Source: Gemmatirosa kalamazoonensis
GTDB lineage: Bacteria; Gemmatimonadota; Gemmatimonadetes; Gemmatimonadales; Gemmatimonadaceae
NCBI RefSeq assembly: GCF_000522985.1
Contig: NZ_CP007129.1
Location: 1-64,000, forward strand
Direction of reading: 5' to 3'
Length of the DNA: 64,000 nucleotides
In this document: positions 1,491 to 61,305 of the stretch, in pieces
Position numbering within the stretch: the first letter of the stretch is position 1
How the letters are laid out: every line of letters starts with the position of its first letter
Notes under the pieces: model-generated
The model's database searches: none
Told to the model about the DNA's origin: nothing
What the model saw: the letters and a program-made list of their open reading frames with translations, nothing else
Program-made: the position numbers and the translations under genes

Positions 1491-1871
1491 TTAGGCCTTA
1501 GTCTTCCGCCGCCGGCGGGGCGCATGCGCGGGTTGCTCTGCTGCGCGGGCCTTCCGCACCGCGTCGCGCGGGATTTCCCAGCCCCTCGCGGTGTGAATCG
1601 CGCCCGGCAGCTCGCCGGCGCGGCACCACCGCCGCACGGTCTGCGGAGTCGTGTTGTTGCGCGGGAGCACGGCGAACTCCTCCGGCGTCAGGCGCTCGGT
1701 GGCGCGGCTTGCTGCCGCGATGCGCTTGCGGAGCTCGCGCTCGCACGATTCCACGGCCTCCGCGACGGGATCGTGCGGCGCGCGCGCGCGGCGCATCTCG
1801 ACCTCCTCACGCCACACATCAGGTAGCGTCGCGATCGGGCCGAGCAGCGAGGTGAACGTGGCGTCAGGCAT
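1491..1871 (-). CDS. Excisionase/MerR-like helix-turn-helix protein
   Basis: The product is 126 residues. The ATG at 1871 overlaps the stop of the ATPase gene upstream (TGATG), which decides the start. The middle reads LTPEEFAVLPRNNTTPQTVRRW and continues to GELPGAIHTARGWEIPRDAV, the layout of a short winged-HTH excisionase-type domain: helix, recognition helix starting TPQTVRRW, then a wing with a G-W-x-I-P turn. The C-terminus is Lys/Arg-rich. It sits directly upstream of the integrase in the same operon, so a directionality factor or local regulator is likely. The stop codon is inside a GCCTAAC heptamer. Confidence 0.6.
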   Translation of the reverse strand: MPDATFTSLLGPIATLPDVWREEVEMRRARAPHDPVAEAVESCERELRKRIAAASRATERLTPEEFAVLPRNNTTPQTVRRWCRAGELPGAIHTARGWEIPRDAVRKARAAEQPAHAPRRRRKTKA

Positions 1872-3676
1872 CAGGCGAGTCCTCGGGGGAAGAGGAGTTC
1901 GGTGGCAATGACCTCGGAGCGCGAGACGTCGGCGAGGAGGCCTAACGTCCGCAGCTTCGACAGGTTGTTGCTGAACGAGCCGGTGTCGGCCTGGACGCCG
2001 AGCGCCTCGGCGATCTGCTGGCGCGTGATCGGCTTCGGGTACGCGCCGATCAGCTGCTCGAGCATCCGCTTCTGCGTGCCCGAGAGTGAATTGCTGGCGT
2101 CGATCCACAGCGAGTGGACGTCGTCGACGCTGACGACCGTCGGCAGTTCCGTGATGTGCGCGCGGCCGTCGGCGGTGAGCGCGATCGCGCCGCCCGGTGC
2201 GTCCTCGAGGAGCCCCGCGGTGCGGAGCGTCGAGAGGTTGTTCGAGAACGACCCCGTGGTGTGCGAGATCCCGCACACGCCGGCGACGGCCGCGCGCGAC
2301 GTCGGCGTCTGTCCGAGCTGCTCGAACAGCGCGAGCGCGTTCAGGATCCGCTGCTGCGTGCCGGAGACGTGCACGCCATTGCCGCTCGCCGGCGCCGGCG
2401 AGCGTCTCACCGGCGGCGCGGAACGTGGCGCAGCCGCCGCCGACCGTGTCGGCCGCGCCGGAATGCGTCCCACCGCGGGCGGTGCCGCCGCGATGTGCGC
2501 GGGCACGTCGCCAGCGATCGCGTCGGCCGTGCGGCGCATCGCGTCCACCGCGGCCGTGGCCACGTCGGTGAGCCGCTCCGCTGTCGCGCGCAGGTCGACC
2601 GCGCGGCCGACGAGCAGCGTACGCAGCTCCTGCACGGCGGCCTCGAGCCCGCGCTTGTACTCGGCCTGCAGGGCTGCCGGATCCGGCGCCGCACCCCGCT
2701 GCTTCAGCTCGCGCTCGAGCTCCGTGATGCGCTTCCGCAGCTCGCGCGGGTCGTCGGCGCGCGCCTGCTCGATCGTGGTCGCGAGCTTCGCCTTCAGCGC
2801 CTCGAGGTCCACGTCGGCCGTGCGCGTGGGCGCCTTCACGCGCTCGCCGGCCTTCGGCGTGCGGCGTGAGTCGAACGTGCGCGCCGAGCGCACCTGCACC
2901 TGCTGGAACACGTCGAGCCACTCCGGAGACCAGAACCAGGCGGTGCCCTGCGGCAGCCGCCGTAGCGACGTGAGGAAGTCCTCCGCGCGCCCCTCCGCGT
3001 CGTGCTCGTCGATCCACGCCTCGAGCGCCTTCCGGTCCTGCGGCGCCACGGTGCGATGGCAGACGAGCAGCTCCACCTGCGTGAGCACGTCCTTGTTCAC
3101 CGTGCTCGCGCGCTGATCGATCAGCGTGACGCCGAAGCCGGAGGCGCGGCCCTGGCGCACGAGCTTCTGGATCGCGCCGACCATCTGCGCGTCCTCGCCC
3201 ATCACGCGCTGCGGGACGAACAGCGAGGCCTCGTCGAACACGCACATGAGCGGCGTCGCGCGTCCCTCCTGCCCCTTTCGGAAGTAGAGGCGGCGCGCGA
3301 AGTCGGTCACGAACCGCCGCATGTCGCGCTGGCTCTCGAAGTGGCGGAGCGAGCAGACGACCGACGCGTTCGACTCCACGACGAAGTCGGCGATCGTCGC
3401 GCCGTCGCCGGCGGCGAGCGGCAGGTCGCCGCGGCGGCCGCCGAGGATGACGACCGGGTAGCCGGGCGACTTCCCATCGGCGGAGCTCTTGAGGCCCCAC
3501 CACACGTCGGTCGGGTCGATCACGGCGACCTGCTGGCCGTGCTCGAGCAGCTCCTCGACGATCACCGTGGCGGTGGTCGACTTCCCCGACCCGCGGATGC
3601 CGAGTACCGCCATGGTGCCCGTGACGGTGTCGAGCGGCAGCGCGAGGTTCGCCGCGACGCGAAGCGCGTTAGGCAT
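1871..3676 (-). CDS. HerA/DUF87-like ATPase with two C-terminal winged-helix repeats
   Basis: The product is 601 residues. It has a Walker A GIRGSGKS at residues 26-33 and a Walker B-like segment PLMCVFDEA with D148-E149. A DQR motif follows (about residue 185), all typical of the HerA/FtsK-like DUF87 group of DNA-pumping or conflict-associated ATPases. A Glu/Arg-rich region predicted to form a coiled coil covers about 280-330. After a Pro/Ala linker come two similar winged-helix modules, each with the string TGSFSNNLS followed by LRT.GLL. The domain order suggests an ATPase tethered to specific DNA by its C-terminus. It lies two genes upstream of the integrase in the early operon. A role in DNA translocation or partition is inference; the ATPase call is firm. 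The start ATGCCTAAC overlaps the upstream stop. Confidence 0.75.
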   Translation of the reverse strand: MPNALRVAANLALPLDTVTGTMAVLGIRGSGKSTTATVIVEELLEHGQQVAVIDPTDVWWGLKSSADGKSPGYPVVILGGRRGDLPLAAGDGATIADFVVESNASVVCSLRHFESQRDMRRFVTDFARRLYFRKGQEGRATPLMCVFDEASLFVPQRVMGEDAQMVGAIQKLVRQGRASGFGVTLIDQRASTVNKDVLTQVELLVCHRTVAPQDRKALEAWIDEHDAEGRAEDFLTSLRRLPQGTAWFWSPEWLDVFQQVQVRSARTFDSRRTPKAGERVKAPTRTADVDLEALKAKLATTIEQARADDPRELRKRITELERELKQRGAAPDPAALQAEYKRGLEAAVQELRTLLVGRAVDLRATAERLTDVATAAVDAMRRTADAIAGDVPAHIAAAPPAVGRIPARPTRSAAAAPRSAPPVRRSPAPASGNGVHVSGTQQRILNALALFEQLGQTPTSRAAVAGVCGISHTTGSFSNNLSTLRTAGLLEDAPGGAIALTADGRAHITELPTVVSVDDVHSLWIDASNSLSGTQKRMLEQLIGAYPKPITRQQIAEALGVQADTGSFSNNLSKLRTLGLLADVSRSEVIATELLFPRGLA

Positions 3677-3918: not shown

Positions 3919-4266
3919 TTAGGCGACCTCCGCGCGCGCCGCTTCGCACGCGCCGCACTGGCAGCAGGCACCGTCGGCGACGTAGGGCGCGGCGCGTCGC
4001 GCCTCGATGAACTCCGAGAGGAACACCGCGCGCACGTTGTTCCGCCGATGCTCCACGGTGAGTCGGCGCACGTGCGCTTCGCACGCCGGCACGTGGTCCT
4101 CGTTGTCGCGCCCCGCGACCACGTGCGTCACCGGCTCGCCGCACAGCACCGGCCTGGGACCGTGCTCGTCGACGATCCACGCGACAACGGCCTCACACCC
4201 GTGCCGCGGCGTCGCCGGCGTCAGGTCGATCGGGCGCTCAGGCACCGTCTCAGAGCGGAAGGTCAT
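3919..4266 (-). CDS. Small Cys/His-rich protein, unknown function
   Basis: The product is 115 residues from the ATG at 4266, overlapping the upstream gene by 17 bases. It has Cys and His in zinc-binding spacings: GCEAVVAW, VLCGEPVTHVV, CEAHVRRL, and near the end CCQCGACEAA. The first part resembles small phage zinc-finger proteins with a C...C...H...C-x2-H layout. No catalytic motif is visible. Its operon position between DNA-binding genes suggests nucleic-acid binding, which is inference. Confidence 0.5.
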   Translation of the reverse strand: MTFRSETVPERPIDLTPATPRHGCEAVVAWIVDEHGPRPVLCGEPVTHVVAGRDNEDHVPACEAHVRRLTVEHRRNNVRAVFLSEFIEARRAAPYVADGACCQCGACEAARAEVA

Positions 4267-4717
4267 CGTCACCGTTGTCTCCGAAGTCGGGCACGAAGTC
4301 ACGCGACGCCACGCGCTGGCGGTACGCCTCCCACTCGGCGTCGGTCCGATCACGCCGCTCCAAGTACTCCGCGCGCAGGCGCGTGGCGGCCGCATCGGCG
4401 CGGTCCGCGCCCAGGAAGTGCCGCGCCGTGCGCTGCACGCGCGCGAGGTCGTGGTTCCACTGCTGGGCGAACTCCATCGCCTCGACCGCGCTGGAGGCGT
4501 CGCGCGCGAGCGCGTCGGCCTCCATCAGCGTGGGCTGGGTGTGGCGGTACGCATCGCAGTCGCGGCAGACGGCGAGCTCGTGACGCACGAGCGGGCCCGC
4601 CACGTCGACACGGAGGTACGCGGCCTCGCGCGAGCCGAGGCCGTAGGCGATATGCGCGTTGCAGCGCGCGCACTCGGTGAGCACGCGGACGGTGCCACCG
4701 GGTCGACGGCGTGTCAT
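4250..4717 (-). CDS. Zinc-binding protein with an SSB-like acidic C-terminal tip
   Basis: The product is 155 residues. The ATG at 4717 overlaps the upstream TGA (ATGA), fixing the start. The N-terminal part has CARCNAH and CRDCDAY, two C-x2-C pairs that look like a zinc ribbon. The middle is helical and charged. The protein ends DNGDDDLPL, resembling the acidic tip of bacterial SSB (DDDIPF) except that the last Phe is Leu. A protein that mimics or competes with SSB tails is possible, but the final Phe is normally important. Family unknown. Confidence 0.5.
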   Translation of the reverse strand: MTRRRPGGTVRVLTECARCNAHIAYGLGSREAAYLRVDVAGPLVRHELAVCRDCDAYRHTQPTLMEADALARDASSAVEAMEFAQQWNHDLARVQRTARHFLGADRADAAATRLRAEYLERRDRTDAEWEAYRQRVASRDFVPDFGDNGDDDLPL

Positions 4718-5775
4718 ACACCCACCGCCACCGGCGAAGCCGGCATCTCGTCCCATGTACGGCCGTCGAGCTCTCGACCCGCGCGCACCTTCCCGAGGCG
4801 GAACATCATGCGAGCGTGCCCGCATGTCGGATCGGTCACGTACTGGTGCGCAGCGTTGTGCGCGATCGCCGCCTCGAGCACGCGCGGGTCAGCGTCGTCG
4901 GCGATCCACTCGCCCCACTGTTTGAAGAAGAATGGGACACCCGCGCAGGCACACTGGTCCCGCAGCGCGCGCGCCCATGCCGGGTGCATCGGGCGCGCAC
5001 GCGGCCCACTCTCGCCGCCGACGATGACCCAGTCCACGCCGGCGTCGGTCCACTGGTGCAGCCCGTGCCGGTCGCGCGCGTCGAAGGTGATGAACGACTG
5101 ATCGGCGACGTACTTCCGCACCGCACCCAGGTCGACCGGGCCTAACAGCGGCTCCATGGAGAGGAATCGCACCGCCGCCGGCGTGTCGAGCAGCAGGTGG
5201 ATCCGCGCATCGGCCGCCGCCTGGTCTTCCACCGAGACGCCGAGCCACACGTTCGGCAGCGCGCCGCGCGCGAAGCGCTCTGCTACGGCGTTCACCTGGG
5301 CAAGCGAGAACGCTTGCCCGAGGAACGTGCCTGTGAGCAGCTCAGCCGCACCGAGCTGTGATCCGTAGCGTTCGCGCAGAGTCGCGCACCAGGTCTGCAT
5401 GCGCGCGGGCCGCTTCGTGAGCACCTGGAAGACGTGGCGCTCGGCGAGCGCCATGACGGCGAAGATCGCCGCGAGCTGCTCGTCGGTGACCCCGTCGTGG
5501 AAGAGGTCGGACATGCTGTTCACGAACACGCGCCGCGGCCGCTGCCAGCGCAGCGGATCCGCGAGGTGCTCCGGGATGAACCGCACCTCACCCGTCCAGC
5601 GCGCCTCACCGCTTGATGTGCGCCGAGCAAGGCCCTCGTACGGCTGCCCCGCGCCGCTGAACCGAGCCGCGACGGTCTCCGCGTAGCAGTGGCGGCAGCC
5701 CTCGGACACGCGCGAACACCCGCGGATTGGATTCCACGTCGCGTCGGTCCACTCGATCCCCGTGCGATCACCCAT
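4714..5775 (-). CDS. DUF5131 / phage Gp37-Gp68 family protein
   Basis: The product is 353 residues, a normal length for the family. The N-terminus reads TGIEWTDATWNPIRGC, then VSEGCRHCYAE, the hallmark of DUF5131. Cysteines 20, 27 and 30 form a C-x6-C-x2-C set that resembles a radical-SAM iron-sulfur site. Further family segments are VFVNSMSDLFHD, LTKRPARM, NVWLGVSVEDQ, RFLSMEPLLGP, VIVGGESGP and VPFFFKQWG. The reaction and substrate are not established for the family. It is common in temperate phages of high-GC hosts, usually in the early region, as here. Confidence 0.85.
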   Translation of the reverse strand: MGDRTGIEWTDATWNPIRGCSRVSEGCRHCYAETVAARFSGAGQPYEGLARRTSSGEARWTGEVRFIPEHLADPLRWQRPRRVFVNSMSDLFHDGVTDEQLAAIFAVMALAERHVFQVLTKRPARMQTWCATLRERYGSQLGAAELLTGTFLGQAFSLAQVNAVAERFARGALPNVWLGVSVEDQAAADARIHLLLDTPAAVRFLSMEPLLGPVDLGAVRKYVADQSFITFDARDRHGLHQWTDAGVDWVIVGGESGPRARPMHPAWARALRDQCACAGVPFFFKQWGEWIADDADPRVLEAAIAHNAAHQYVTDPTCGHARMMFRLGKVRAGRELDGRTWDEMPASPVAVGV

Positions 5776-5799: not shown

Positions 5800-6441
5800 T
5801 CATGCCGCGGACTGGTCCCGATACGCCTTCAGCTGCTTCTTCCACGGGCTGTGCTCCGGGTGGTACTTCGGCGGCCGCCCAGGCGGCTTCCAGGCGATCG
5901 GCTCGCCGCACTTGGCGCACACCGGCGCCGGCCGCACCGGGTGCAGCCGGTAGTAGCGCTCGAGCGCCTGCCGCCGCTTCTTCTCGGCGCGCTCGGGCCG
6001 CGCGTTGGCGCGCATGTAGCCGGCGACGTAGCCCGGCGTCCGCTTCAGGTGGTAGCGCCGGCGGTGACGCTTTCGCGCCTCGGGATGCGCGGCCTCCCAT
6101 TCCTTGCGCCGCGCCTTCCGCCGCTCACGGAACGCCCGGTCCGTGCGCCACCGCTTCCGCCACTGCGCGTTCTTGCGCTTCCGGATCTCCGGGTCCTCCT
6201 CCGAGCGACGTCGCGACGTCGCGCGCGCGGCCGCGGCGCACTCGGCGCAGCGAATCGCCCTGCCGATCGCGCCGTACACTGGGCGGGGGCAGTCGCGGCA
6301 CAGCCCAGCGAGGCGCCGCTCGCACCGCGGGCAGCGTGTGACGACCGCGCCACCCGGCTGGACGTCGTGCTCGAGCAGTCCCCCGCAGAACCGGAACGTG
6401 CACTTCGCCATCTGCAGCCCCTTCGCGGCAACGCCAGGCAT
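5800..6441 (-). CDS. Basic multi-zinc-ribbon protein, unknown function
   Basis: The product is 213 residues and very rich in Arg and Lys. Four C-x2-C pairs are visible: CPRCERRL, CRDCPRPV, CAECAAAA and, near the C-terminus, CAKCGEPI. The last is followed by AWKPPGRPPKYHPEHSPWKK, reminiscent of zinc-ribbon plus HNH-type phage proteins, but no H-N-H triad is evident. Between the pairs lies a long basic helical region (about residues 80-165). Nucleic-acid binding is very likely; the activity is not recognisable. A later ATG (QMAKCTF, residue 11) could be the true start. Confidence 0.5.
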   Translation of the reverse strand: MPGVAAKGLQMAKCTFRFCGGLLEHDVQPGGAVVTRCPRCERRLAGLCRDCPRPVYGAIGRAIRCAECAAAARATSRRRSEEDPEIRKRKNAQWRKRWRTDRAFRERRKARRKEWEAAHPEARKRHRRRYHLKRTPGYVAGYMRANARPERAEKKRRQALERYYRLHPVRPAPVCAKCGEPIAWKPPGRPPKYHPEHSPWKKQLKAYRDQSAA

Positions 6442-6453
6442 CGTCGGAGACCG

Positions 6454-6948
6454 TTAGGCGTAGAGGGACTGCGCCGCCGACAGCGCGATGGTCTCCGGGT
6501 CTGTGCCGCGCGCGTGAAAGCCGGCCGCGTACGCGTGCTCGGCGACGCGCGTCGCGTAGGCGGCGACGCGCTTCGCGAGCGCCTTGCTCAGGTTCTCCTC
6601 GCGCGACTGCAGCGCGTCCTCCTGCCGGTCCTGTGGGGCGCGCACGATCAGCATGCCGCGGACGGTGCCCGCGAGCGCGGCCGCAATCGCGTCCTCCACC
6701 GTCTCCGTCGTCGCCAGCTCGAGCTCCTGCTGCTGGGCGAACTGCGGCAGGATGAACGTGCGGATGGCCGCCGCGTCGTCGTCGATCGTGCGCGCGGCAT
6801 TCCGGTAGCCGTCGTCCTTCAGCTGCTTCGCGCGCTTGGCGAGCGCCTCGGCGCGCTGCTCGAGCGCCTGCACGACGATCGTGTGGTCGTGCGGCGTGCG
6901 CAGGATGACGCTGGAACCCGACGCGGTTGCGGCGAACGCAGTAGCCAT
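6454..6948 (-). CDS. Helical protein upstream-coupled to Bet, unknown function
   Basis: The product is 164 residues from the ATG at 6948, which has a GCGAGGA ribosome-binding site a few bases before it; the open frame extends further but overlaps bet. The sequence is mostly alpha-helical with heptad-like Ala/Leu/Glu runs (ALEQRAEALAKRAKQLKDDG and beyond). No cysteine cluster or catalytic motif is seen. Its place just after the recombinase gene hints at a recombination or host-takeover accessory, but that is only positional. Confidence 0.45.
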   Translation of the reverse strand: MATAFAATASGSSVILRTPHDHTIVVQALEQRAEALAKRAKQLKDDGYRNAARTIDDDAAAIRTFILPQFAQQQELELATTETVEDAIAAALAGTVRGMLIVRAPQDRQEDALQSREENLSKALAKRVAAYATRVAEHAYAAGFHARGTDPETIALSAAQSLYA

Positions 6949-6970: not shown

Positions 6971-8245
6971 TCAGAACGGGATGTCGTCGTCGGCCTTCGC
7001 GGCCCTTCGCTCGAGTGCGTCCTCGACGCGGCCGCCGGCGGGCATGTCGACGCGCGCGGCCGTACTCGGCTTCGGCGGCTCCTGGACGCCGAGGTCCTGC
7101 TGCTTCGCGTACGCGGGCACGTCACCGCGCGCGCGGCGTGCCTCGAGCTCCTCGCTCACGATCTCGATCCACTTCTCCGAGCCGCCCTTGCGCGACGCCT
7201 CGAGTGCGTCAGTGAGTTCGCTCCAGGTGCAGTCGCCGACCTGGCGGCCGCGCAGCTGCTCGAGCGGGAAGTTCTTCGGGAACTTCTTCTCGCCGCGCTT
7301 CACGTCGGCCGACTTCGGCGGCCACTCGCCGGGCCAGTACTTCCCGTCGCAGCTGCGGTCCTTGCATTTGAAGTCCGGCGCGCGCGGGTTCGTCTTCGTC
7401 TCGCGATTGTCCCACATGCCACCGCTGCACTTCGGGCACGTCGGCGCCGGCGGCTCGTTCGGATCGCCCGCGCTCGCCGACGCGGCGGCCGCGGTGTCCT
7501 CGCTCGCGGGCGCCGCGTTCGACGCCTGGCCCATCTCGTCCGGCGTGTACACGCCCGAGAGCTCGTTCGGGAACGCCTTCCGCAGCGCGAGCGCCTCGGC
7601 GCACTTCGCGAGCTGCTCGGGCCCCATGCGCTCCCACATCGACACGAGCCCTCCATCGCGCCTCTTCTGCGCGTACGCGTCGAACCGGGCGATGCCCAGG
7701 AGCGGCTCCTTGAACGCGCGGCGGTGCACGCCCACGCGCGCGGCGTACGGCTGCTCGGCGGGGAACGGCCACACCTCGAACCACCGTACGACGGGGTCTC
7801 CGCCGGTGACGTCGAAGTCGTACAGCTTGCCCCACTGCGGCGGCGTCTGCCCCTCGTACTCGCCGGTGCGCTCGGCGACGAGGCGGAAGCCGTCGATCGA
7901 CACCTCGGCGCGGCCCGTCTCGACCCAGCGGCCGTCCTCCTGCGTCTTCCGCTTGATGAAGTAGATCTGCCGCGCGAACGGGTCGAGGCGGAGCCGCTTG
8001 CACGTGAACAGGAAGAGCTGCAGCTCGTCGTCGGTCGCGCCCTTCGCGATCGTGCGCTTGATCAGCTCGATCTGCTCGCGCGTGAAGTGCAGCCCCTCGA
8101 CGGTCGGCGGTGCGGGCTCCGACTCCGGCGCCTGCTGCTCGCGCTCCGCGCCCTTCGACACGTGCACGAGCGGCGCAGCCTGAGGGAGGTCGACAACAGG
8201 ACCGGTCTGGGCGCGGTCCTGCACTTCGGGGGCGGGCGCGGTCAT
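6971..8245 (-). CDS. bet: Bet/RecT-type single-strand annealing protein with zinc knuckle and SSB-like tip
   Basis: The product is 424 residues from the ATG at 8245, which overlaps the preceding TGA. The core (about residues 50-250) shows Bet family signatures: ELQLFLFTCKRLRLDPFARQ, VSIDGFRLVAERTGEYEGQ, LAKCAEALALRKAFPNELSG and VYTPDEM. Such proteins anneal complementary single strands during phage recombination and replication. After the core comes a zinc-binding set CPKCSGG...CKDRSC (about 275-310) and a helical region. The protein ends ADDDIPF, the same tip as bacterial SSB. No 5'-3' exonuclease partner is recognisable nearby, unlike the lambda red pair. Confidence 0.85.
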   Translation of the reverse strand: MTAPAPEVQDRAQTGPVVDLPQAAPLVHVSKGAEREQQAPESEPAPPTVEGLHFTREQIELIKRTIAKGATDDELQLFLFTCKRLRLDPFARQIYFIKRKTQEDGRWVETGRAEVSIDGFRLVAERTGEYEGQTPPQWGKLYDFDVTGGDPVVRWFEVWPFPAEQPYAARVGVHRRAFKEPLLGIARFDAYAQKRRDGGLVSMWERMGPEQLAKCAEALALRKAFPNELSGVYTPDEMGQASNAAPASEDTAAAASASAGDPNEPPAPTCPKCSGGMWDNRETKTNPRAPDFKCKDRSCDGKYWPGEWPPKSADVKRGEKKFPKNFPLEQLRGRQVGDCTWSELTDALEASRKGGSEKWIEIVSEELEARRARGDVPAYAKQQDLGVQEPPKPSTAARVDMPAGGRVEDALERRAAKADDDIPF

Positions 8246-10739: not shown

Positions 10740-11101
10740 CGGTTGTCGAGCTCTCGGAAATGCGGCATCGGCGGGAGCATGCCGCGACGCTTCCGCCGGT
10801 TGTTGAGCAGCTCCTGCACGCGCGTCATGTAGTCCCGCGGATCCACCGGCGATGGCGCCGGCGGCTGCGGTCGGTCCGGAACGAGTTTCAGCTGCGGCAC
10901 CGGATGCTTCAGGTCCAGCCACGCCTCGAGCGCGCCCATCGCCCGCCCCAGTGGCCACTCTGGTGGCACCGGGCGCTGCGCGCGCAGTGCGCCGGTGTGG
11001 TCGATCGCGAGCAGCACGAGCCGCCCGCGCACCGTGTACGGCGCCACGAAGACGCCGCGCTGCAACAACTCTGTTGTCCGTCCGCCTTCGACTCGCAGCA
11101 T
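10736..11101 (-). CDS. Hypothetical protein convergent with the repressor
   Basis: The product is 121 residues. The N-terminal half (GVFVAPYTVRGRLVLLAIDHTG) looks like a small beta sheet; then a Pro-rich linker and a basic C-terminus DYMTRVQELLNNRRKRRG. It is the only leftward gene to the right of the repressor, and its stop (TAG) overlaps the repressor stop (TAA) in opposite orientation. Not recognised. Confidence 0.5.
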   Translation of the reverse strand: MLRVEGGRTTELLQRGVFVAPYTVRGRLVLLAIDHTGALRAQRPVPPEWPLGRAMGALEAWLDLKHPVPQLKLVPDRPQPPAPSPVDPRDYMTRVQELLNNRRKRRGMLPPMPHFRELDNR

Positions 11102-11121
11102 CAGCTTCGGGTTACGTTCGG

Positions 11122-11141
11122 GGGTGCGCTATATGGCACCC
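11122..11141. promoter_or_regulatory. Hairpin/inverted repeat upstream of the 10736-11101 gene
   Basis: GGGTGC GCTATATG GCACCC, 6-bp arms with an AT-rich centre, 21 bases before the leftward start codon. It may be an operator or promoter element. The rest of 11102-11317 contains no gene. Confidence 0.4.
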
Positions 11142-11203
11142 GACGCGGACACCCGCAACCGTGCGGCCGAGCAAGCCTAACGCTTCCACATCTCCACATC
11201 GCT

Positions 11204-11227
11204 CGGTGTTGCGTCGATGCAACACCG
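11204..11227. promoter_or_regulatory. Inverted repeat before the rightward cargo genes
   Basis: CGGTGTTGC GTCGAT GCAACACCG: perfect 9-bp arms with a 6-base centre, in a gene-free stretch. It could be an operator for the genes starting at 11318 or a terminator-like hairpin; no T-run follows. Confidence 0.5.
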
Positions 11228-11317
11228 GCGGCCGTACCCGGGCGGATGCACGACCCGGCAATGCCGCCGGTTGCCCGCGCCTAACGGCGTCCCCCACCTG
11301 CTGAAGGTCGCCGCATC

Positions 11318-11824
11318 ATGTTCCTCCTATTCATCTTCGCCGTCGCCTGCGGCATCGCCGGCTACCTGCTGCTCGAGCCGATGGACAACGGCGGCGCAGG
11401 CGCCGCGCTCGGGTTTCTACTCGGCCCGATCGGGATCCTTATCGCGTGGATCATGCGAATGAACGCGCAGCGCGAGCTCGAGGCACAGCGCGTTCGACAC
11501 GACCGTCACCACCGCGAGAGCGATTCCCGAGCGACGGCCGTCGTCCCGAGCGCGATGACACGCGACACGAAGGTCTGCCCCGACTGCGCGGAGACCATCA
11601 AGGCCGACGCCCGCATCTGCCGGTTCTGCCGTCGGGAGTTCAGCGTGGAGGAGATCGCGGCCGCGAAAGCGCCGCGCGAAGTCGCGCGCGCGAAAGGACC
11701 GCCGCGCGAGCCGAAGCCCTGCGAGGTGTGCGGCACCCCCGTGGCTTGGGCGGACCAGCGCATCGGCGGTCCTGTCCAGTGTCCGGAGCACCGCGGTGCG
11801 CCGGCGCGCCGGTCCTTCCGCTGA
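11318..11824 (+). CDS. Membrane protein with zinc ribbons
   Basis: The product is 168 residues. Two hydrophobic segments (residues 1-18, FLLFIFAVACGIAGYLLL, and about 27-48, GAALGFLLGPIGILIAWIM) are followed by a basic linker. A UPF0547-type zinc ribbon comes next (KVCPDCAETIKADARICRFC, about residues 87-106), then a second Cys set (CEVCGTPVAW...CPEH). The hydrophobic pair plus ribbon is common in small regulatory membrane proteins. It heads the overlapping chain 11318-13183, so it is probably co-expressed in the lysogen. Partner unknown. Confidence 0.6.
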   Translation: MFLLFIFAVACGIAGYLLLEPMDNGGAGAALGFLLGPIGILIAWIMRMNAQRELEAQRVRHDRHHRESDSRATAVVPSAMTRDTKVCPDCAETIKADARICRFCRREFSVEEIAAAKAPREVARAKGPPREPKPCEVCGTPVAWADQRIGGPVQCPEHRGAPARRSFR

Positions 11825-12453
11825 TGCGGGATCTCAAGTGGTGTGCGGTGTCTCTTCTGATCGTCGGAGCGGCGGCCTGCAAGGGAGCTGACCGCGGCCC
11901 GGACCGTCAGAAGGTCACCGCGGCGCAGCCCGTAGACACCAATCCACCAGGGACGCGATGGACGATCGACAGCACCGTCGACGAGCTGACACGCGCGGTG
12001 TCGTATGAACTGAACGCGCGACCGGTCGAATCGTCGGAGCCCCACGGTTCCATCACCAGCACGGTCGACATCCGGTGGCGGTGCGGGCCGCGCGATCCGG
12101 TGGCTTCCGCCGGCGCCGCGTTCGACATGGCACTCCTCGACTCGCCTAACGTGACCGTGCAGCCGGGCGGGCGGCCCGCGCGATATGAGACGTGGCGACG
12201 TTCGGGCCGGTTCATCGTCGCTGACCCGCCGTTGGCCGATTCGTTGGTCGTTGACCTCCACGTCACCGACACGACGATCGTGCGATTTGAGGCGTTGGGC
12301 CGGCCGGCCTACGTCCACCTGCCGGCGCGCGGCTTTCCCGAAGCATGGCGCGACTGGGTCGCGCGCTGTGACAGGGGAGGTACCGTCCGGAAGATTGTGC
12401 TGCCCAGGATCGGTCGGGCCGTGAGCCGCGTCCAGCAGGCGGCTTCGCGATGA
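11824..12453 (+). CDS. Putative lipoprotein
   Basis: The product is 209 residues, with ATG at 11824 overlapping the upstream TGA. The N-terminus has a signal peptide (CAVSLLIVGAAAC) ending in a lipobox-like AAAC with Cys19, so export and lipidation are expected. The mature part is polar with beta-type segments and no family I recognise. A phage-encoded lipoprotein expressed from the repressor side suggests lysogenic conversion of the host envelope, possibly superinfection exclusion. That role is inference. Confidence 0.6.
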   Translation: MRDLKWCAVSLLIVGAAACKGADRGPDRQKVTAAQPVDTNPPGTRWTIDSTVDELTRAVSYELNARPVESSEPHGSITSTVDIRWRCGPRDPVASAGAAFDMALLDSPNVTVQPGGRPARYETWRRSGRFIVADPPLADSLVVDLHVTDTTIVRFEALGRPAYVHLPARGFPEAWRDWVARCDRGGTVRKIVLPRIGRAVSRVQQAASR

Positions 12454-12854
12454 GCGCGATGCCCACACTCCAGGCGCCGGAGGAGTTCACGAAGCCGGCG
12501 ACCAAGCGGTTCGTCGACGAAGCGCGCGTGGCGCTCGACGAGCACCACGCCGGCGTGCGGATCGACTTCACCCACGTCGTGTCCGTCGGCGCCGCTGGCG
12601 GCCTCGCCCTGCTCGCGCTGCACGAGTACGCCGCCCAGTTAGGCGGTGACGTCCTCCTCGTAAACGTGCCGGACGATCTCGCGGACGAGCTAGCCGCCGC
12701 GGGTGTAGACCGCGCGTGTTACGTGCGCCGCGCCGACGCACGCGCTACTGCGTCGCGACGAGCGCGCGCGAACCAGCGGGCCGGCCGTACCGAGGAGGGC
12801 GACGGGGCAAGCGCACGAGGGGGCTACATCCGCTTGGTGCGAGAGACCGAGTGA
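12450..12854 (+). CDS. STAS-like domain protein
   Basis: The product is 134 residues, start overlapping the lipoprotein stop (ATGA). Residues 15-90 resemble a STAS fold: VRIDFTHVVSVGAAGGLALL is the beta strand plus conserved loop region, then LHEYAAQLGGDVLLVNVPDDL. In STAS antagonists the loop carries a phosphorylatable Ser; here it reads VSVGAAGG, so a switch by phosphorylation is uncertain. The Arg/Ala-rich tail is outside the fold. It might act in a signalling chain, but no anti-sigma kinase is nearby. Confidence 0.5.
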   Translation: MSAMPTLQAPEEFTKPATKRFVDEARVALDEHHAGVRIDFTHVVSVGAAGGLALLALHEYAAQLGGDVLLVNVPDDLADELAAAGVDRACYVRRADARATASRRARANQRAGRTEEGDGASARGGYIRLVRETE

Positions 12855-13611: not shown

Positions 13612-14556
13612 GTGAGCGCCGCCATAAGCTCATACGCCCGTGTCTGGACCGGTGCGGAATGGGAGGAGCACATCAACATGCTGCTCGCCATCCGCTACGC
13701 GGCCGGAGACTACGTGCGAGTACCTGCAAAGCATGGGGGGGACTGCGGAATCGAGGGCTACTCGATTCCGGACGGACGGGCGTATCAGTGCTACGCGCCG
13801 GAAACACCGCTCCCGACGACCCAACTCTACGAACACCAGCGACGGAAGATGGCGACCGATGTGAAGAAGTTCATCGCCAATCGGGAGCGGTTGCTGGCCG
13901 TCCTCGGGACAACTCGTATTCGTCGCTGGCTCCTCGTTGTGCCCGAGCATCGCAGCATACGCCTCAACGAGTACGCCGTCCGCAAGACCGAGGAGGTCCG
14001 CGCCGCAGGCCTGCCCTACGTCACGGATGACTTTCATGTTGTCGTCGTAACAGACGACGACTTCGCCCTCGAGCGAAACAAGCTCTACGAACAGCCAAGT
14101 GGCCTCGTTCGTCTCCCCGAAGTCCTCATCGACGGCGAGGTACTGGACCTCTTCGCCGCGAAGAATGCAGCGGCCATGGAGCACCTCGAGCGAAAGGTGA
14201 AGTCCATCGTGCCTCGTGATCTGTCAGCGCGCGCTGAGGTCGTCCAACAGCTGCTCGAGGCATACGTGATCGGCACAGCGTTGTTACAGCGGCTACACGA
14301 CCTTTCCCCAGCGTTACACGAACAACTACTCAGTGTCGCTGCACGCGCGGCGAAGGAAATCCGTCTGAAATCCCGGATTACGACCGTTCCAGCCTCGGAA
14401 CTTGTCCAACAAACCATCGGCACGCTCAAGGTGCAGATCCTTCGTGCAGCGCCGAGCCTTGAGCTGCATGCCGACGATCTCACGATGCAGATTGTTGCCG
14501 ACTGGCTTATGCGCTGCCCGCTGGACTTTTCCGTCACATCGATGCCCGTCTCATGA
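13612..14556 (+). CDS. ABC-three-component effector: nuclease-like (PD-(D/E)xK-type) protein
   Basis: The product is 314 residues with a GTG start. The N-terminal 110 residues resemble restriction-endonuclease-fold effectors of ABC-three-component conflict systems: TGAEWEEHINMLL, then GGDCGIEGYSIPDGRAYQCY. In this, D44 and E48 sit before the Y-Q-C-Y strand, where classical enzymes have Q-x-K; the Lys is replaced by Tyr (61). Helical segments fill the C-terminal half. The gene overlaps the next by four bases (ATGA) and is first of three. Base composition is visibly less GC-rich than its neighbours. Proposed role: DNA-cleaving output of an anti-phage system. The family link is from memory of motif layout, not a search. 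Confidence 0.65.
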   Translation: MSAAISSYARVWTGAEWEEHINMLLAIRYAAGDYVRVPAKHGGDCGIEGYSIPDGRAYQCYAPETPLPTTQLYEHQRRKMATDVKKFIANRERLLAVLGTTRIRRWLLVVPEHRSIRLNEYAVRKTEEVRAAGLPYVTDDFHVVVVTDDDFALERNKLYEQPSGLVRLPEVLIDGEVLDLFAAKNAAAMEHLERKVKSIVPRDLSARAEVVQQLLEAYVIGTALLQRLHDLSPALHEQLLSVAARAAKEIRLKSRITTVPASELVQQTIGTLKVQILRAAPSLELHADDLTMQIVADWLMRCPLDFSVTSMPVS

Positions 14557-15080
14557 GCGTCCTGGACACCACGCCCACGCCGACGCCTAACTATCTCCTT
14601 GCTGCGTTAAGGAAGTCGGCATCGGTCGTCTCGTTCACGGCCCGCCCGATACCTTTGCACGCCGACTACCGGCCAATCTGGCGCGTCCCGCTTCTCGCGA
14701 TAACGATCCGCCTGTGTTGTCACGCGAGCAGGACAAGTCTAACGCGACTCCACATACTCAACTGGGCGGTGCGAACGCCGTCAGCGCGACGCGAGCTCCT
14801 CGCCCTGCTCGACGGCAAGAAACGTCCGCAGGACGTCATCGTTCGCACAGAGCCGACGCTGAACTTTGTGGTTGATCTTGCTCTGGGCGAGAAGGTGGTG
14901 TCGTTCCCACGTGGCGACCGGGTCGCGTTGACGGAGCGAGGGATCGCGCTTGCCGATGAAGTAATTCAAACGGAAGACTGCTTCGAGGTCGAAAAGGCAT
15001 TCTTCGCGGCCCTCGGAAAGCAACTCACCGAAGAGTGGGTGGGCGAGCTCGTGAAGGTAAGCTTTCAGGACCGTTCATGA
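14553..15080 (+). CDS. ABC-three-component middle component (winged-helix adaptor)
   Basis: The product is 175 residues, ATG overlapping the effector stop. It contains RLHILNWAVRTPSARREL, the characteristic segment of the small middle components (LxLLNWALR.P..R), followed by a winged-helix-like part ending VALTERGIALADEV. In the known systems this protein bridges the SMC-like ATPase and the effector. Overlap on both sides indicates a strictly coupled three-gene operon. The first 25 residues are weakly conserved-looking, and a later start is possible. Confidence 0.65.
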   Translation: MSVLDTTPTPTPNYLLAALRKSASVVSFTARPIPLHADYRPIWRVPLLAITIRLCCHASRTSLTRLHILNWAVRTPSARRELLALLDGKKRPQDVIVRTEPTLNFVVDLALGEKVVSFPRGDRVALTERGIALADEVIQTEDCFEVEKAFFAALGKQLTEEWVGELVKVSFQDRS

Positions 15081-17125
15081 TCATCACGCGACTTCGCCTT
15101 CGCGCGTACACCGCCATCGGTGAGGTTGGTGTTACAATCCCCTTCTCGAAGGGCTTGGTGCTCCTGCGCGCGGAGGGCGCTGGCGGCAAGTCGAACTGCT
15201 TGCTCGCGATCTTGTACGCGCTGGGTCTCGACGGCATGCTCGGGCCGAGTAAGGCAGTACCGCTTAAGCACGCGATGACGGACTTCGTCGATGTTGACGG
15301 CGAAGAGGTGCCAGTGATCTCGTCGGAAGTCATGCTCGAGATCCAGGACGCTGCTGGCCGATTCATTACCGTGCTACGGTCGGTGAAGGGCAATCGCTCC
15401 CGTGACCTAGTAACGGTCTGGGAGGGTGAACATCTTGAGGATACCGAATCCGCTAGCGTGCCCTCGCGCGATTTCTTTGTGCGCGTGCCCGGTGCGGTGA
15501 CCAACGCGGCTGGGTTCCATCAGTATCTGGCGTCCTTCTTCGGCTGGAAGCTGCCGGGTGTGCTGACGTACGGCGGCGAGACAGTCCCGCTCTACATGGA
15601 GAGCATCTTCCCGCTCCTCTTTGTCGAGCAGGTACGAGGCTGGAGTGCCATCGAGGGGATTTATCCTACCCACTTCCGCATTCGCGACCCAGGAACCCGC
15701 GCGGTCGAGTTCATCCTTGCCCTCGGCATCCGCGACCTTGCGGCACGCCGAGCGCTGCTCGAGCGAGACATGGAGAGCGTACGGGTGTCTTGGACACAGT
15801 CAGCACGGCAGGTGGATGCGGTTGCCCGAAACCTGGGTGCTGTTGTGCATGGCCTACCCAATGCGCCGGTCGCAGAGTGGCCAACATCCGCACCACCACG
15901 CTTGCTGGTCTCCGCCGGGGAGAATTGGGAGCCCATCGATGCGTTGATCGCTACCCTTGAGTCCGAGCTCGCCGAGAAGTCTCGAGAGCCGGCTCGTACG
16001 ACGGCAGAGGTGGCCCCACAGCTGGAGGCGGACCTTCGCGAGGCCGAACGACGGGTCCGAACGGTTGAGGCGTGGCTCTCGGGCGTGTTCAATGATATCG
16101 AGCTGCTTGAACTGGAGATAACGCGGACCGAGGAGCGCATTCGGGCGCTCGCGGATGATCTAACACGCAACAAGGACGCGCTTCGCCTCAAGAAGCTCGG
16201 GTCTACGCGGGCACTCGCAATCACATCGGACCGATGCCCGACGTGTCATCAGAGCGTCGAGCTGGCTCTGCTTCCCGAAGTTCGCGCCGCTGAAGCAAGC
16301 CCGATGACGCTCGAGGACAATGTGAGGTACCTCGAGGATCAGCGCGACATGTTCCAACTCGTCCTGGCGCAGACGCAGGACTCGCTCAGTGCGAAGCTCC
16401 GCCAGTCAACCGCTGGCGGCGAGGAGCTTGCCAGAGCACGGGCGACGGTCCGTGATCTCCGCGCGGCGCTAGTCGCACATCCGCTAACGACCTCGAAGGA
16501 GTCGGTCGCCGAGATCGTGCGCCTAGAGGCGAGGATCGATGCGTTGAAGCGCGGTGTCCGGCTCGCGCAGGAGTACACGAACGAGTTCACGGTGCTTGCC
16601 GAACGCTGGGCAGACCTCCAAGCACGGCTGGCAGAATTGCCGGAGGACTCTATATCGGCGGAAGATGCAGCGAAGCTCGGTGCCCTGCAGAGTTCCTTCA
16701 CGGAGCAACTCGTCGAGTACGGGCTCACGTCGGTTGAGCCGCACGCGATCGTTATCCCAAGAGACTCACTGCGTCCGGAGTACAAGGGTTTCGACCTGCA
16801 ATTCGACCTCGCTGGGAGCGACGCAACGCGGGCGACTTGGGCCTACCGGAACGCATTTCTGGAGGTGGCTCGCACCCACGCGACGAATCACCCGGGATTT
16901 CTCATCATCGATGAACCGCAGCAGCAACACCCGAGTCTGGAATCATTCGGGGCTCTGCTGCGGCGGGTCTCCCGGAGTGAAAGGCACGATCAGCAGGTGA
17001 TTATCTCGACGAACGAGAAGGTCAGCGACTTAAGAGCGTTGCTCGAGGGGCATTCATACACGTTGCTTGACTACGGAGATGAACGGATGATGCGGCTTGT
17101 CTCTCGGACGGAGCGACCGGTGTGA
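15077..17125 (+). CDS. SMC-like ABC ATPase of an ABC-three-component system
   Basis: The product is 682 residues. The ATG at 15077 overlaps the previous TGA (ATGA), which decides the start over an in-frame ATG 42 bases earlier. A Walker A-like AEGAGGKS is at 32-39, with Ala in the first Gly position. VEQVRGWSAIEG (about 180-195) precedes a long coiled coil broken by CPTC (Cys387, Cys390), like a Rad50-type hook. C-terminally come a signature-like AGSDATRATWAY, the Walker B GFLIIDEP (D612, E613) and a switch VIISTNE. Expected role: an ATP-dependent DNA or RNP sensor that licenses the effector encoded two genes upstream. Lower GC than the phage backbone and no GTTAGGC heptamer inside suggest recent gain. 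Confidence 0.75.
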   Translation: MIITRLRLRAYTAIGEVGVTIPFSKGLVLLRAEGAGGKSNCLLAILYALGLDGMLGPSKAVPLKHAMTDFVDVDGEEVPVISSEVMLEIQDAAGRFITVLRSVKGNRSRDLVTVWEGEHLEDTESASVPSRDFFVRVPGAVTNAAGFHQYLASFFGWKLPGVLTYGGETVPLYMESIFPLLFVEQVRGWSAIEGIYPTHFRIRDPGTRAVEFILALGIRDLAARRALLERDMESVRVSWTQSARQVDAVARNLGAVVHGLPNAPVAEWPTSAPPRLLVSAGENWEPIDALIATLESELAEKSREPARTTAEVAPQLEADLREAERRVRTVEAWLSGVFNDIELLELEITRTEERIRALADDLTRNKDALRLKKLGSTRALAITSDRCPTCHQSVELALLPEVRAAEASPMTLEDNVRYLEDQRDMFQLVLAQTQDSLSAKLRQSTAGGEELARARATVRDLRAALVAHPLTTSKESVAEIVRLEARIDALKRGVRLAQEYTNEFTVLAERWADLQARLAELPEDSISAEDAAKLGALQSSFTEQLVEYGLTSVEPHAIVIPRDSLRPEYKGFDLQFDLAGSDATRATWAYRNAFLEVARTHATNHPGFLIIDEPQQQHPSLESFGALLRRVSRSERHDQQVIISTNEKVSDLRALLEGHSYTLLDYGDERMMRLVSRTERPV

Positions 17126-52136: not shown

Positions 52137-52600
52137 GCCGCACCTCGATCGGTGGGCTGCCGCGGGATTGACCCGCCGCAGTCGAGACAGCGACCGACGA
52201 ACGCGCCGTCCCGGTAGCCCCACGACTCGCGCGTCGGCGCGACGCAGCGGCACTCCGCCGGCCCCCACCCCACGTGTTCCGCCCACCACCGGCGGAGCGC
52301 CACGAGCGCGCGCGCCCAGCGCGTCGCCGGCGCCGGCACGGCCGGCATCGACGTCGGGACGCGCGACAGACTATGTTCGCGCCGTGACGCTCCAGCGCCC
52401 CGATCGGCGAACGCCGCGAACGCGTGTTCGCTGGTTACGCGTTGGTTACGGCGGAGGGAACACGATTCGGCCGGTGTACGGCCTTCCGTGTTCGACCCCG
52501 CGAGCGCCGCTCTCTGGGGCGCGTTCGCAACGTTCGCGAACCTCTGTTCGCGGTCGAGTTTACCAGAGAATCGGATCCCACCGCTACGCCCGAAGCGCAT
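52133..52600 (-). CDS. Cys-containing hypothetical protein spanning the repeat region
   Basis: The open frame is 155 residues from an ATG at 52600 that overlaps the preceding gene. A shorter start at 52348 (MPAVPAP, 71 residues) would leave the repeats non-coding. The C-terminus has CRCVAPTRESWGYRDGAFVG and CLDCGGS, a zinc-ribbon-like pair. If the long form is real, its RRNQRVTSEHAFAAFADRGA resembles TRNQSVTTAAIGERAGVDRG in the gene upstream. Confidence 0.4.
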   Translation of the reverse strand: MRFGRSGGIRFSGKLDREQRFANVANAPQRAALAGSNTEGRTPAESCSLRRNQRVTSEHAFAAFADRGAGASRREHSLSRVPTSMPAVPAPATRWARALVALRRWWAEHVGWGPAECRCVAPTRESWGYRDGAFVGRCLDCGGSIPRQPTDRGAA

Positions 52601-60030: not shown

Positions 60031-61305
60031 TCAGAACGGGATGTCGTCGTCGGCCTTCGCGGCCCTTCGCTCGAGTGCGTCCTCGACGCGGCCGCCGGCG
60101 GGCATGTCGACGCGCGCGGCCGTACTCGGCTTCGGCGGCTCCTGGACGCCGAGGTCCTGCTGCTTCGCGTACGCGGGCACGTCACCGCGCGCGCGGCGTG
60201 CCTCGAGCTCCTCGCTCACGATCTCGATCCACTTCTCCGAGCCGCCCTTGCGCGACGCCTCGAGTGCGTCAGTGAGTTCGCTCCAGGTGCAGTCGCCGAC
60301 CTGGCGGCCGCGCAGCTGCTCGAGCGGGAAGTTCTTCGGGAACTTCTTCTCGCCGCGCTTCACGTCGGCCGACTTCGGCGGCCACTCGCCGGGCCAGTAC
60401 TTCCCGTCGCAGCTGCGGTCCTTGCATTTGAAGTCCGGCGCGCGCGGGTTCGTCTTCGTCTCGCGATTGTCCCACATGCCACCGCTGCACTTCGGGCACG
60501 TCGGCGCCGGCGGCTCGTTCGGATCGCCCGCGCTCGCCGACGCGGCGGCCGCGGTGTCCTCGCTCGCGGGCGCCGCGTTCGACGCCTGGCCCATCTCGTC
60601 CGGCGTGTACACGCCCGAGAGCTCGTTCGGGAACGCCTTCCGCAGCGCGAGCGCCTCGGCGCACTTCGCGAGCTGCTCGGGCCCCATGCGCTCCCACATC
60701 GACACGAGCCCTCCATCGCGCCTCTTCTGCGCGTACGCGTCGAACCGGGCGATGCCCAGGAGCGGCTCCTTGAACGCGCGGCGGTGCACGCCCACGCGCG
60801 CGGCGTACGGCTGCTCGGCGGGGAACGGCCACACCTCGAACCACCGTACGACGGGGTCTCCGCCGGTGACGTCGAAGTCGTACAGCTTGCCCCACTGCGG
60901 CGGCGTCTGCCCCTCGTACTCGCCGGTGCGCTCGGCGACGAGGCGGAAGCCGTCGATCGACACCTCGGCGCGGCCCGTCTCGACCCAGCGGCCGTCCTCC
61001 TGCGTCTTCCGCTTGATGAAGTAGATCTGCCGCGCGAACGGGTCGAGGCGGAGCCGCTTGCACGTGAACAGGAAGAGCTGCAGCTCGTCGTCGGTCGCGC
61101 CCTTCGCGATCGTGCGCTTGATCAGCTCGATCTGCTCGCGCGTGAAGTGCAGCCCCTCGACGGTCGGCGGTGCGGGCTCCGACTCCGGCGCCTGCTGCTC
61201 GCGCTCCGCGCCCTTCGACACGTGCACGAGCGGCGCAGCCTGAGGGAGGTCGACAACAGGACCGGTCTGGGCGCGGTCCTGCACTTCGGGGGCGGGCGCG
61301 GTCAT
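60031..61305 (-). CDS. bet: Bet-type annealing protein (copy 2 of 6971-8245)
   Basis: Identical 424-residue product ending ADDDIPF. Confidence 0.85.
   Translation of the reverse strand: MTAPAPEVQDRAQTGPVVDLPQAAPLVHVSKGAEREQQAPESEPAPPTVEGLHFTREQIELIKRTIAKGATDDELQLFLFTCKRLRLDPFARQIYFIKRKTQEDGRWVETGRAEVSIDGFRLVAERTGEYEGQTPPQWGKLYDFDVTGGDPVVRWFEVWPFPAEQPYAARVGVHRRAFKEPLLGIARFDAYAQKRRDGGLVSMWERMGPEQLAKCAEALALRKAFPNELSGVYTPDEMGQASNAAPASEDTAAAASASAGDPNEPPAPTCPKCSGGMWDNRETKTNPRAPDFKCKDRSCDGKYWPGEWPPKSADVKRGEKKFPKNFPLEQLRGRQVGDCTWSELTDALEASRKGGSEKWIEIVSEELEARRARGDVPAYAKQQDLGVQEPPKPSTAARVDMPAGGRVEDALERRAAKADDDIPF

Follow-up and report, generated by a model that had tools for sequence, protein, structure and literature searches.

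The closest described systems are the annealing proteins of the lambda Redbeta/RecT type (Bet; TIGR01913, PF03837), for which several articles report contacts with SSB. In Redbeta, the contact is made by the C-terminal part, a helical domain that binds SSB, and is needed in vivo (PMC8303780), while PMC10711431 links RecT activity to the C-terminal residues of SSB, and ties the range of hosts in which phage annealing proteins work to how they recognise the SSB tail of the host. Sak4 is reported to be stimulated by the tail of a phage SSB, and DDDIPF is given as the C-terminal end of the E. coli SSB (PMC5928155). RecO is among the repair proteins that recognise SSB tips (PMC7913777, PMC10018359).

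Two further systems bear some likeness to the protein considered here. DdrB of Deinococcus has a purported SSB-like motif, which was dispensable for radioresistance, and a structure of its own, unlike that of our protein; zinc is not mentioned in the text of that article (PMC3834827). In other single-strand annealing proteins (SSAPs), a C-terminal HTH domain like that of Redbeta is common to unrelated clans, which has been ascribed to domain shuffling between phages; the words zinc, tail and acidic are absent from the text of the article (PMC8093625).

The window, i.e., the whole stretch of 64,000 nucleotides that was analysed (C3:1-64000), encodes a RecT protein that has the annealing core in common with lambda Redbeta/RecT by profile and fold, but differs from Redbeta in its SSB-like tip and zinc ribbon and in the absence of a recognised neighbouring exonuclease. 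With bacterial SSB it shares the C-terminal tip, whereas the OB-fold SSB domain of the latter (PF00436) is absent, RecT being its sole Pfam match. Compared with the HTH domain of SSAPs, the C-terminal cassette of this protein consists of a ribbon and an SSB tip and is found on host chromosomal proteins too. One of them, a chromosomal Rad52-like protein of Gemmatimonadaceae encoded in the same genome (L003), has the same zinc ribbon and tip and ends in TADDEIPF, but it belongs to a different annealing family (PF04098) and lacks the helical domain. Since C-terminal domains shared among SSAPs are already known for the HTH (PMC8093625), the ribbon-plus-tip tail appears to be a new version of a known kind of sharing. 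No report of such a tail on annealing proteins was found in the open-licence PMC literature, the coverage of which is partial, and the group of proteins with this ribbon and tip is not known to correspond to a published family.

Anatomy of the RecT/Bet-type protein

The gene is located on the minus strand at window positions 6971-8245 (ATG at 8243-8245, stop codon at 6971-6973). Its 424-aa product had been described in the initial annotation as a Bet-type protein ending in ADDDIPF, and both points were borne out: the C-terminus reads RAAKADDDIPF, and the protein scored 85.9 bits against NCBIfam TIGR01913 (bet_lambda), exceeding the cut-off of 76.95, and 102.9 bits against Pfam RecT PF03837 (cut-off 24; E 2.1e-29, aa 54-245). 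It also matched PHROG 2780 with an E value of 7.6e-61. The features of the gene are as follows.

6971..8245, minus strand: gene for a 424-aa single-strand annealing protein of the RecT/Bet type (profile, fold and ORF evidence)
7511..8086, minus strand: RecT/Redbeta annealing core, aa 54-245 (Pfam RecT, PHROG 2780, Foldseek 7ujl/7ub2)
7313..7444, minus strand: four-cysteine ribbon, predicted to bind zinc, with WPGEWPPK, aa 268-311 (C270, C273, C294, C299; alignments)
7106..7270, minus strand: small helical domain, aa 326-380, bounds approximate (common to L090 and L034; alignments A3 and A9)
6995..7105, minus strand: linker, aa 381-417 (low confidence, pLDDT mostly <60)
6974..6994, minus strand: SSB-like C-terminal tip ADDDIPF, aa 418-424 (sequence and tip controls)
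60031..61305, minus strand: second, identical gene copy in the adjoining prophage unit (sequence identity)

The AlphaFold model of the protein is modest (mean pLDDT 67.6), with moderate to good confidence for the core, the ribbon and the helical domain and low confidence for the linker and the tip; the cassette modelled alone reached a mean pLDDT of 74.3. Foldseek matched the full model to Redbeta (7ujl, E 3.2e-5) and LiRecT (7ub2, E 0.018). By profile and fold, the protein is assigned to the RecT/Bet-type annealing proteins, and annealing is its predicted activity.

The cysteines C270, C273, C294 and C299 are spaced C-x2-C-x20-C-x4-C and are followed by the WPGEWPPK motif. The site had been called a zinc knuckle, which is a CCHC element (C-x2-C-x4-H-x4-C); the spacing observed is that of a ribbon instead, and the four cysteines suggest that it binds zinc. 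All four are conserved without exception in alignments A5 and A7, but some rows of A1 depart from them. The ribbon profile built from the 14 rows of A1 matched the window RecT with an E value of 4.1e-22 in the own-genome search, which is partly by construction, the window ribbon being one of these rows; the independent link is provided by the whole-protein search of the phylum genomes described below. The ribbon piece alone gave no Pfam match at E<=5, the ribbon-cassette profile gave no match among PDB sequences at E<=1, and the stand-alone double-ribbon protein described below had only sub-threshold zinc-ribbon matches.

The helical domain contains two helices (aa 341-354 and 357-373) with pLDDT blocks of about 84-93. 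Its assignment to a recognisable known fold was dropped, the cassette model having no Foldseek match at E<=0.001 and a best VIA-align Z of 4.4, neither of which proves a new fold. A relationship to ExoX-like_C (PF20600) was dropped as well, since the 80-aa piece gives no profile match; a profile-profile comparison (hhalign) with a set including one PF20600 protein returned a probability of 82, a weak similarity with three sequences on each side that is kept as a lead.

An acidic tip ending in PF is a trait of SSB. The claim that ADDDIPF is the exact SSB tip is correct with respect to E. coli, the SSB of which ends in DDDIPF, but not with respect to the host, whose single PF00436 SSB, encoded on the chromosome, has the C-terminus EDSDDDLPF. 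Among 684 stop-terminated six-frame ORFs of at least 50 aa in the window, the strict tip is present in the two copies of the recT gene alone.

Distribution of the ribbon and the tip

Among the matches listed for viral RecT relatives, 80 loci were kept, four of which run off the contig; 65 of the 76 complete proteins are devoid of the tip and 11 have it (L208 and L210 counted), and no ribbon was found in any of the 80 loci. The RecT proteins of cultured phages translated (four of 124 matching records: Microcystis phage Mae-JY09, Synechococcus phage S-H1, Gordonia phage PrincePatrick and Mycobacterium phage prophi62-3) all end in unrelated residues. The tip was consequently rejected as a trait of the RecT family and, since most RecT homologues end differently, it belongs to the C-terminal cassette and not to the RecT core. 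Conservation of the tip in homologues, which the initial annotation had proposed as the test of its reading, is therefore lacking in most RecT proteins but is seen among ribbon-bearing annealing proteins. A RecT with the ribbon is known from a single genome. The ribbon-less viral RecT proteins with a tip are L194, L198, L200, L202, L203, L205, L206, L208, L210, L212 and L213; the six that were read have another C-terminal stretch in common, labelled OB-like by eye.

The searches that found the ribbon never used the tip as a criterion; the one exception is that tip-bearing rows went into the structure and cassette alignments, which came later. Because each ribbon scan used one short peptide pattern, the distribution counts are lower bounds. 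The whole window protein had matches in 24 of 298 genomes of the phylum, namely its own genome, two genomes via the RecT core (G267 and G034), and 21 via aa 237-364, where the matches are due to the ribbon. Scanning viral contigs with the whole protein gave five pattern matches, none of which was confirmed. The scan with the 14-row ribbon alignment revealed 57 viral loci and 31 genome loci, all 31 of the latter in Gemmatimonadota; the viral loci are mostly ERF, along with two Rad52-like (L097, L098), one phrog_10048 (L090) and others. A scan for the WPG[EQ]WPP motif yielded 68 stretches, with the ribbon and the motif occurring together in three new proteins (L231, L243 and L261).

Altogether, the ribbon is carried by RecT, ERF, Rad52, AAA_24/Sak4-like, phrog_10048 and stand-alone double-ribbon proteins, in phages and on host chromosomes. 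Its carriers in the genomes include chromosomal Rad52-like proteins (PF04098), the two-ribbon stand-alone protein, L039, which is an ATPase of the AAA_24/Sak4-like type, and L034, which belongs to phrog_10048; most of them have an SSB-like end. Assignment to phrog_10048 was made by PHROGs for L034 and L090 and by eye for L261, and these three are predicted to be annealing proteins.

Four loci were left out before counting, three without a ribbon (L013, L019 and L041) and one with an open 3' end (L129). The strict tip was found in 96 of 119 ribbon proteins and in 56 of 69 clusters at 90% identity, one member being judged per cluster, while 105 of the 119 (sum over classes) match the relaxed tip pattern. 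The counts by class, with labels given by simple motif rules and rows including some genes fetched twice, are listed below.

Rad52, chromosomal: tip in 29/36
ERF: strict tip in 37/46, relaxed in 45/46
Double ribbon: tip in 18/18
AAA_24/Sak4-like: tip in 2/2
phrog_10048: tip in 2/2 (a third protein, L261, lacks the tip and is counted under other)
Rad52-like, viral: strict tip in 1/2, relaxed in 2/2
RecT: tip in 1/1
Other: tip in 6/12

Three of the 13 clusters without the strict tip still end in PF. The tip-less ribbon proteins comprise Rad52 rows (L021, L029, L117 group) as well as L035, L084, L086, L088, L093 and L261; since such proteins exist, the tip is not indispensable. As a control, the strict tip was counted in coding-like ORFs of at least 100 aa without the ribbon pattern and was present in 13 of 1847, which were SSB, nine RecT, two Rad52-like proteins (L302 and L303, the tip of the latter being poor) and one ribbon protein that had slipped through the ribbon filter (L126). 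Among 80 ERF loci, both of those with the ribbon have the tip, as do 10 of the 78 without it. Such tips without a ribbon, in 11/76 complete RecT (among the matches listed) and 10/78 ERF, are a counterpoint to the coupling of the two elements.

A close Rad52 orthologue (E <1e-69) was detected in 12 of 200 genomes; all twelve are ribbon proteins and eleven have the tip, L021 being the exception. In the tip-bearing chromosomal orthologues, linkers of 13 to 68 aa, little alike, lead to the same tip, and a constant end after variable linkers is what characterises a short docking motif. At another chromosomal locus (L309), a rad52-like gene at 5837-6706 on the plus strand encodes both ribbon and tip; a RecN-like ORF, recognised by eye at 11028-12491, lies about 4.3 kb away.

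Possible roles of the C-terminal cassette

The reading we favour, with a probability of roughly 0.58, is that the window encodes a RecT/Bet protein ending in a transferable adaptor cassette, which would dock annealing proteins onto partners that read SSB tips. The cassette, in which a four-cysteine putative zinc ribbon is combined with a disordered linker, an acidic-hydrophobic tip like that of SSB and, in this protein, a small helical domain, is mobile among unrelated annealing proteins, and its tip is retained despite free linkers. We infer the docking and the identity of the partners. Docking onto SSB-tip readers is favoured because repair proteins read SSB tips and annealing proteins depend on contact with SSB; for a tip that is real, SSB-like and kept against drift across many ribbon-bearing annealing proteins, a role in contacting SSB-tip partners would be the simplest reading.

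In the mechanism we propose, the RecT core would anneal complementary strands, and its oligomer on ssDNA would display the tip many times over. The tip could dock into the pockets of SSB-tip readers, candidates for which are host RecO, the gene of which is present in the host genome, or a nuclease or helicase of phage or host origin. In this way, repair factors and SSB-coated DNA would be brought together with the annealing protein, and the ribbon probably supplies a nucleic-acid or protein contact.

Tentatively, and with more doubt than confidence, one could extend the proposal to the whole set of carriers: a zinc ribbon with an SSB tip might make any annealing protein, whether from a phage or a bacterium, act as an SSB-like hub recruiting the SSB interactome, and might also mark unrecognised annealing proteins (phrog_10048 and the L092 and L231 families) as well as a stand-alone two-ribbon adaptor in Gemmatimonadaceae. 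Annealing proteins with an SSB tip of their own make the link between host range and the SSB tail testable from the other side and could aid the tuning of recombineering in hosts with few tools. They also provide a sequence handle for unrecognised annealing families, and the presence of this tail on a Rad52-like protein of the host shows that phage and bacterial recombination proteins have one C-terminal module in common.

It is unlikely, but worth weighing, that the tip acts on its own annealing protein, filling either the DNA groove or a docking site for SSB tips, in its own subunit or the neighbouring one, and so providing self-inhibition or assembly control that is released by DNA or SSB. 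Recognition of the SSB tail is reported for RecT and Redbeta proteins (PMC8303780, PMC10711431), so that a tip carried by such a protein could compete, and PMC5928155 considers contact between an acidic SSB tail and the DNA site of the same protein. However, the stand-alone double-ribbon protein keeps the tip in all 18 rows without having an annealing core, and the linker is free in both sequence and length.

The view that the ribbon does the work, with the tip as a dispensable passenger or a mere solubility aid, seems improbable. Ribbon proteins without the tip do exist (the 13 of 69 clusters noted above), and the motif of DdrB was reported to be dispensable in radioresistance (PMC3834827), but a passenger would decay, yet the tip persists behind divergent linkers and is also present on ribbon-less RecT and ERF proteins.

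Replacement of a missing phage SSB by the tip-bearing annealing protein is very improbable and was rejected. The own-genome search found no PF00436 match in the prophage, the single match of the genome being the chromosomal gene, and an SSB-like ORF was present in the 2-3 kb flanks of 0/57 ribbon loci as compared with 3/80 RecT (among the matches listed) and 8/80 ERF loci. This flank signal was not borne out on whole viral records, which may be fragments: PF00436 was detected in 2/31 tip-bearing and 4/33 tip-less records, and the difference is largely gone. The same records lend no support to the earlier suggestion that a recombinase with its own SSB tail could bypass host SSB, since the tip-bearing ones are not clearly poorer in ssb.

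Finally, a chance likeness of the last residues, for which no supporting point was found, is refuted in practice by the controls, as no other ORF of the window ends in this way, nor does any unrelated gene among the 1847 control ORFs.

Genome setting of the prophage

The genome, that of a member of the Gemmatimonadota, comprises 7.48 Mb in four contigs, with C3 accounting for 1,106,233 bases. The recT gene lies in a tailed prophage, with portal, terminase, head morphogenesis, minor tail and D5-type primase/helicase genes. It consists of two almost identical units, each ~53 kb long, that adjoin in tandem, with the junction at window positions 52554-52567, and the short sequence TACCAGA is present at this junction and at both outer ends (C3:105626 and C3:1101199). 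A DNA search with the portal gene against 21 relatives gave full-length matches in the own genome alone.

The end of contig C3 is a 99.76% copy of its start, with gaps as the only differences, and this duplication is probably an untrimmed circular overlap. A 4.5-kb insert cutting the integrase at the contig start was for this reason dropped as an interpretation, and the 416-aa integrase at 237-1487 is more likely to be a sequence-end artefact than a cut integrase. A repeat scan of the contig end gave nothing informative.

No nuclease partner was identified by PHROGs or Pfam among the neighbours scanned, several of which match no family; in the RecT relatives of Gordonia and Mycobacterium, a RecE-like gene is adjacent. 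Near recT, on the minus strand at 1871-3676, lies a gene for a HerA-like ATPase with C-terminal winged helices, a possible end-processing partner. Another gene (4250-4825, minus strand) encodes a 191-aa protein, assigned to no PHROG family, that ends in NGDDDLPL, one residue off an SSB-like tip. The prophage also bears a complete Lamassu-type defence set at window positions 13612-17125 on the plus strand, predicted by PADLOC models:

13612-14556, plus strand: LmuA (PADLOC)
14553-15080, plus strand: LmuC (PADLOC)
15035-17125, plus strand: LmuB (PADLOC)
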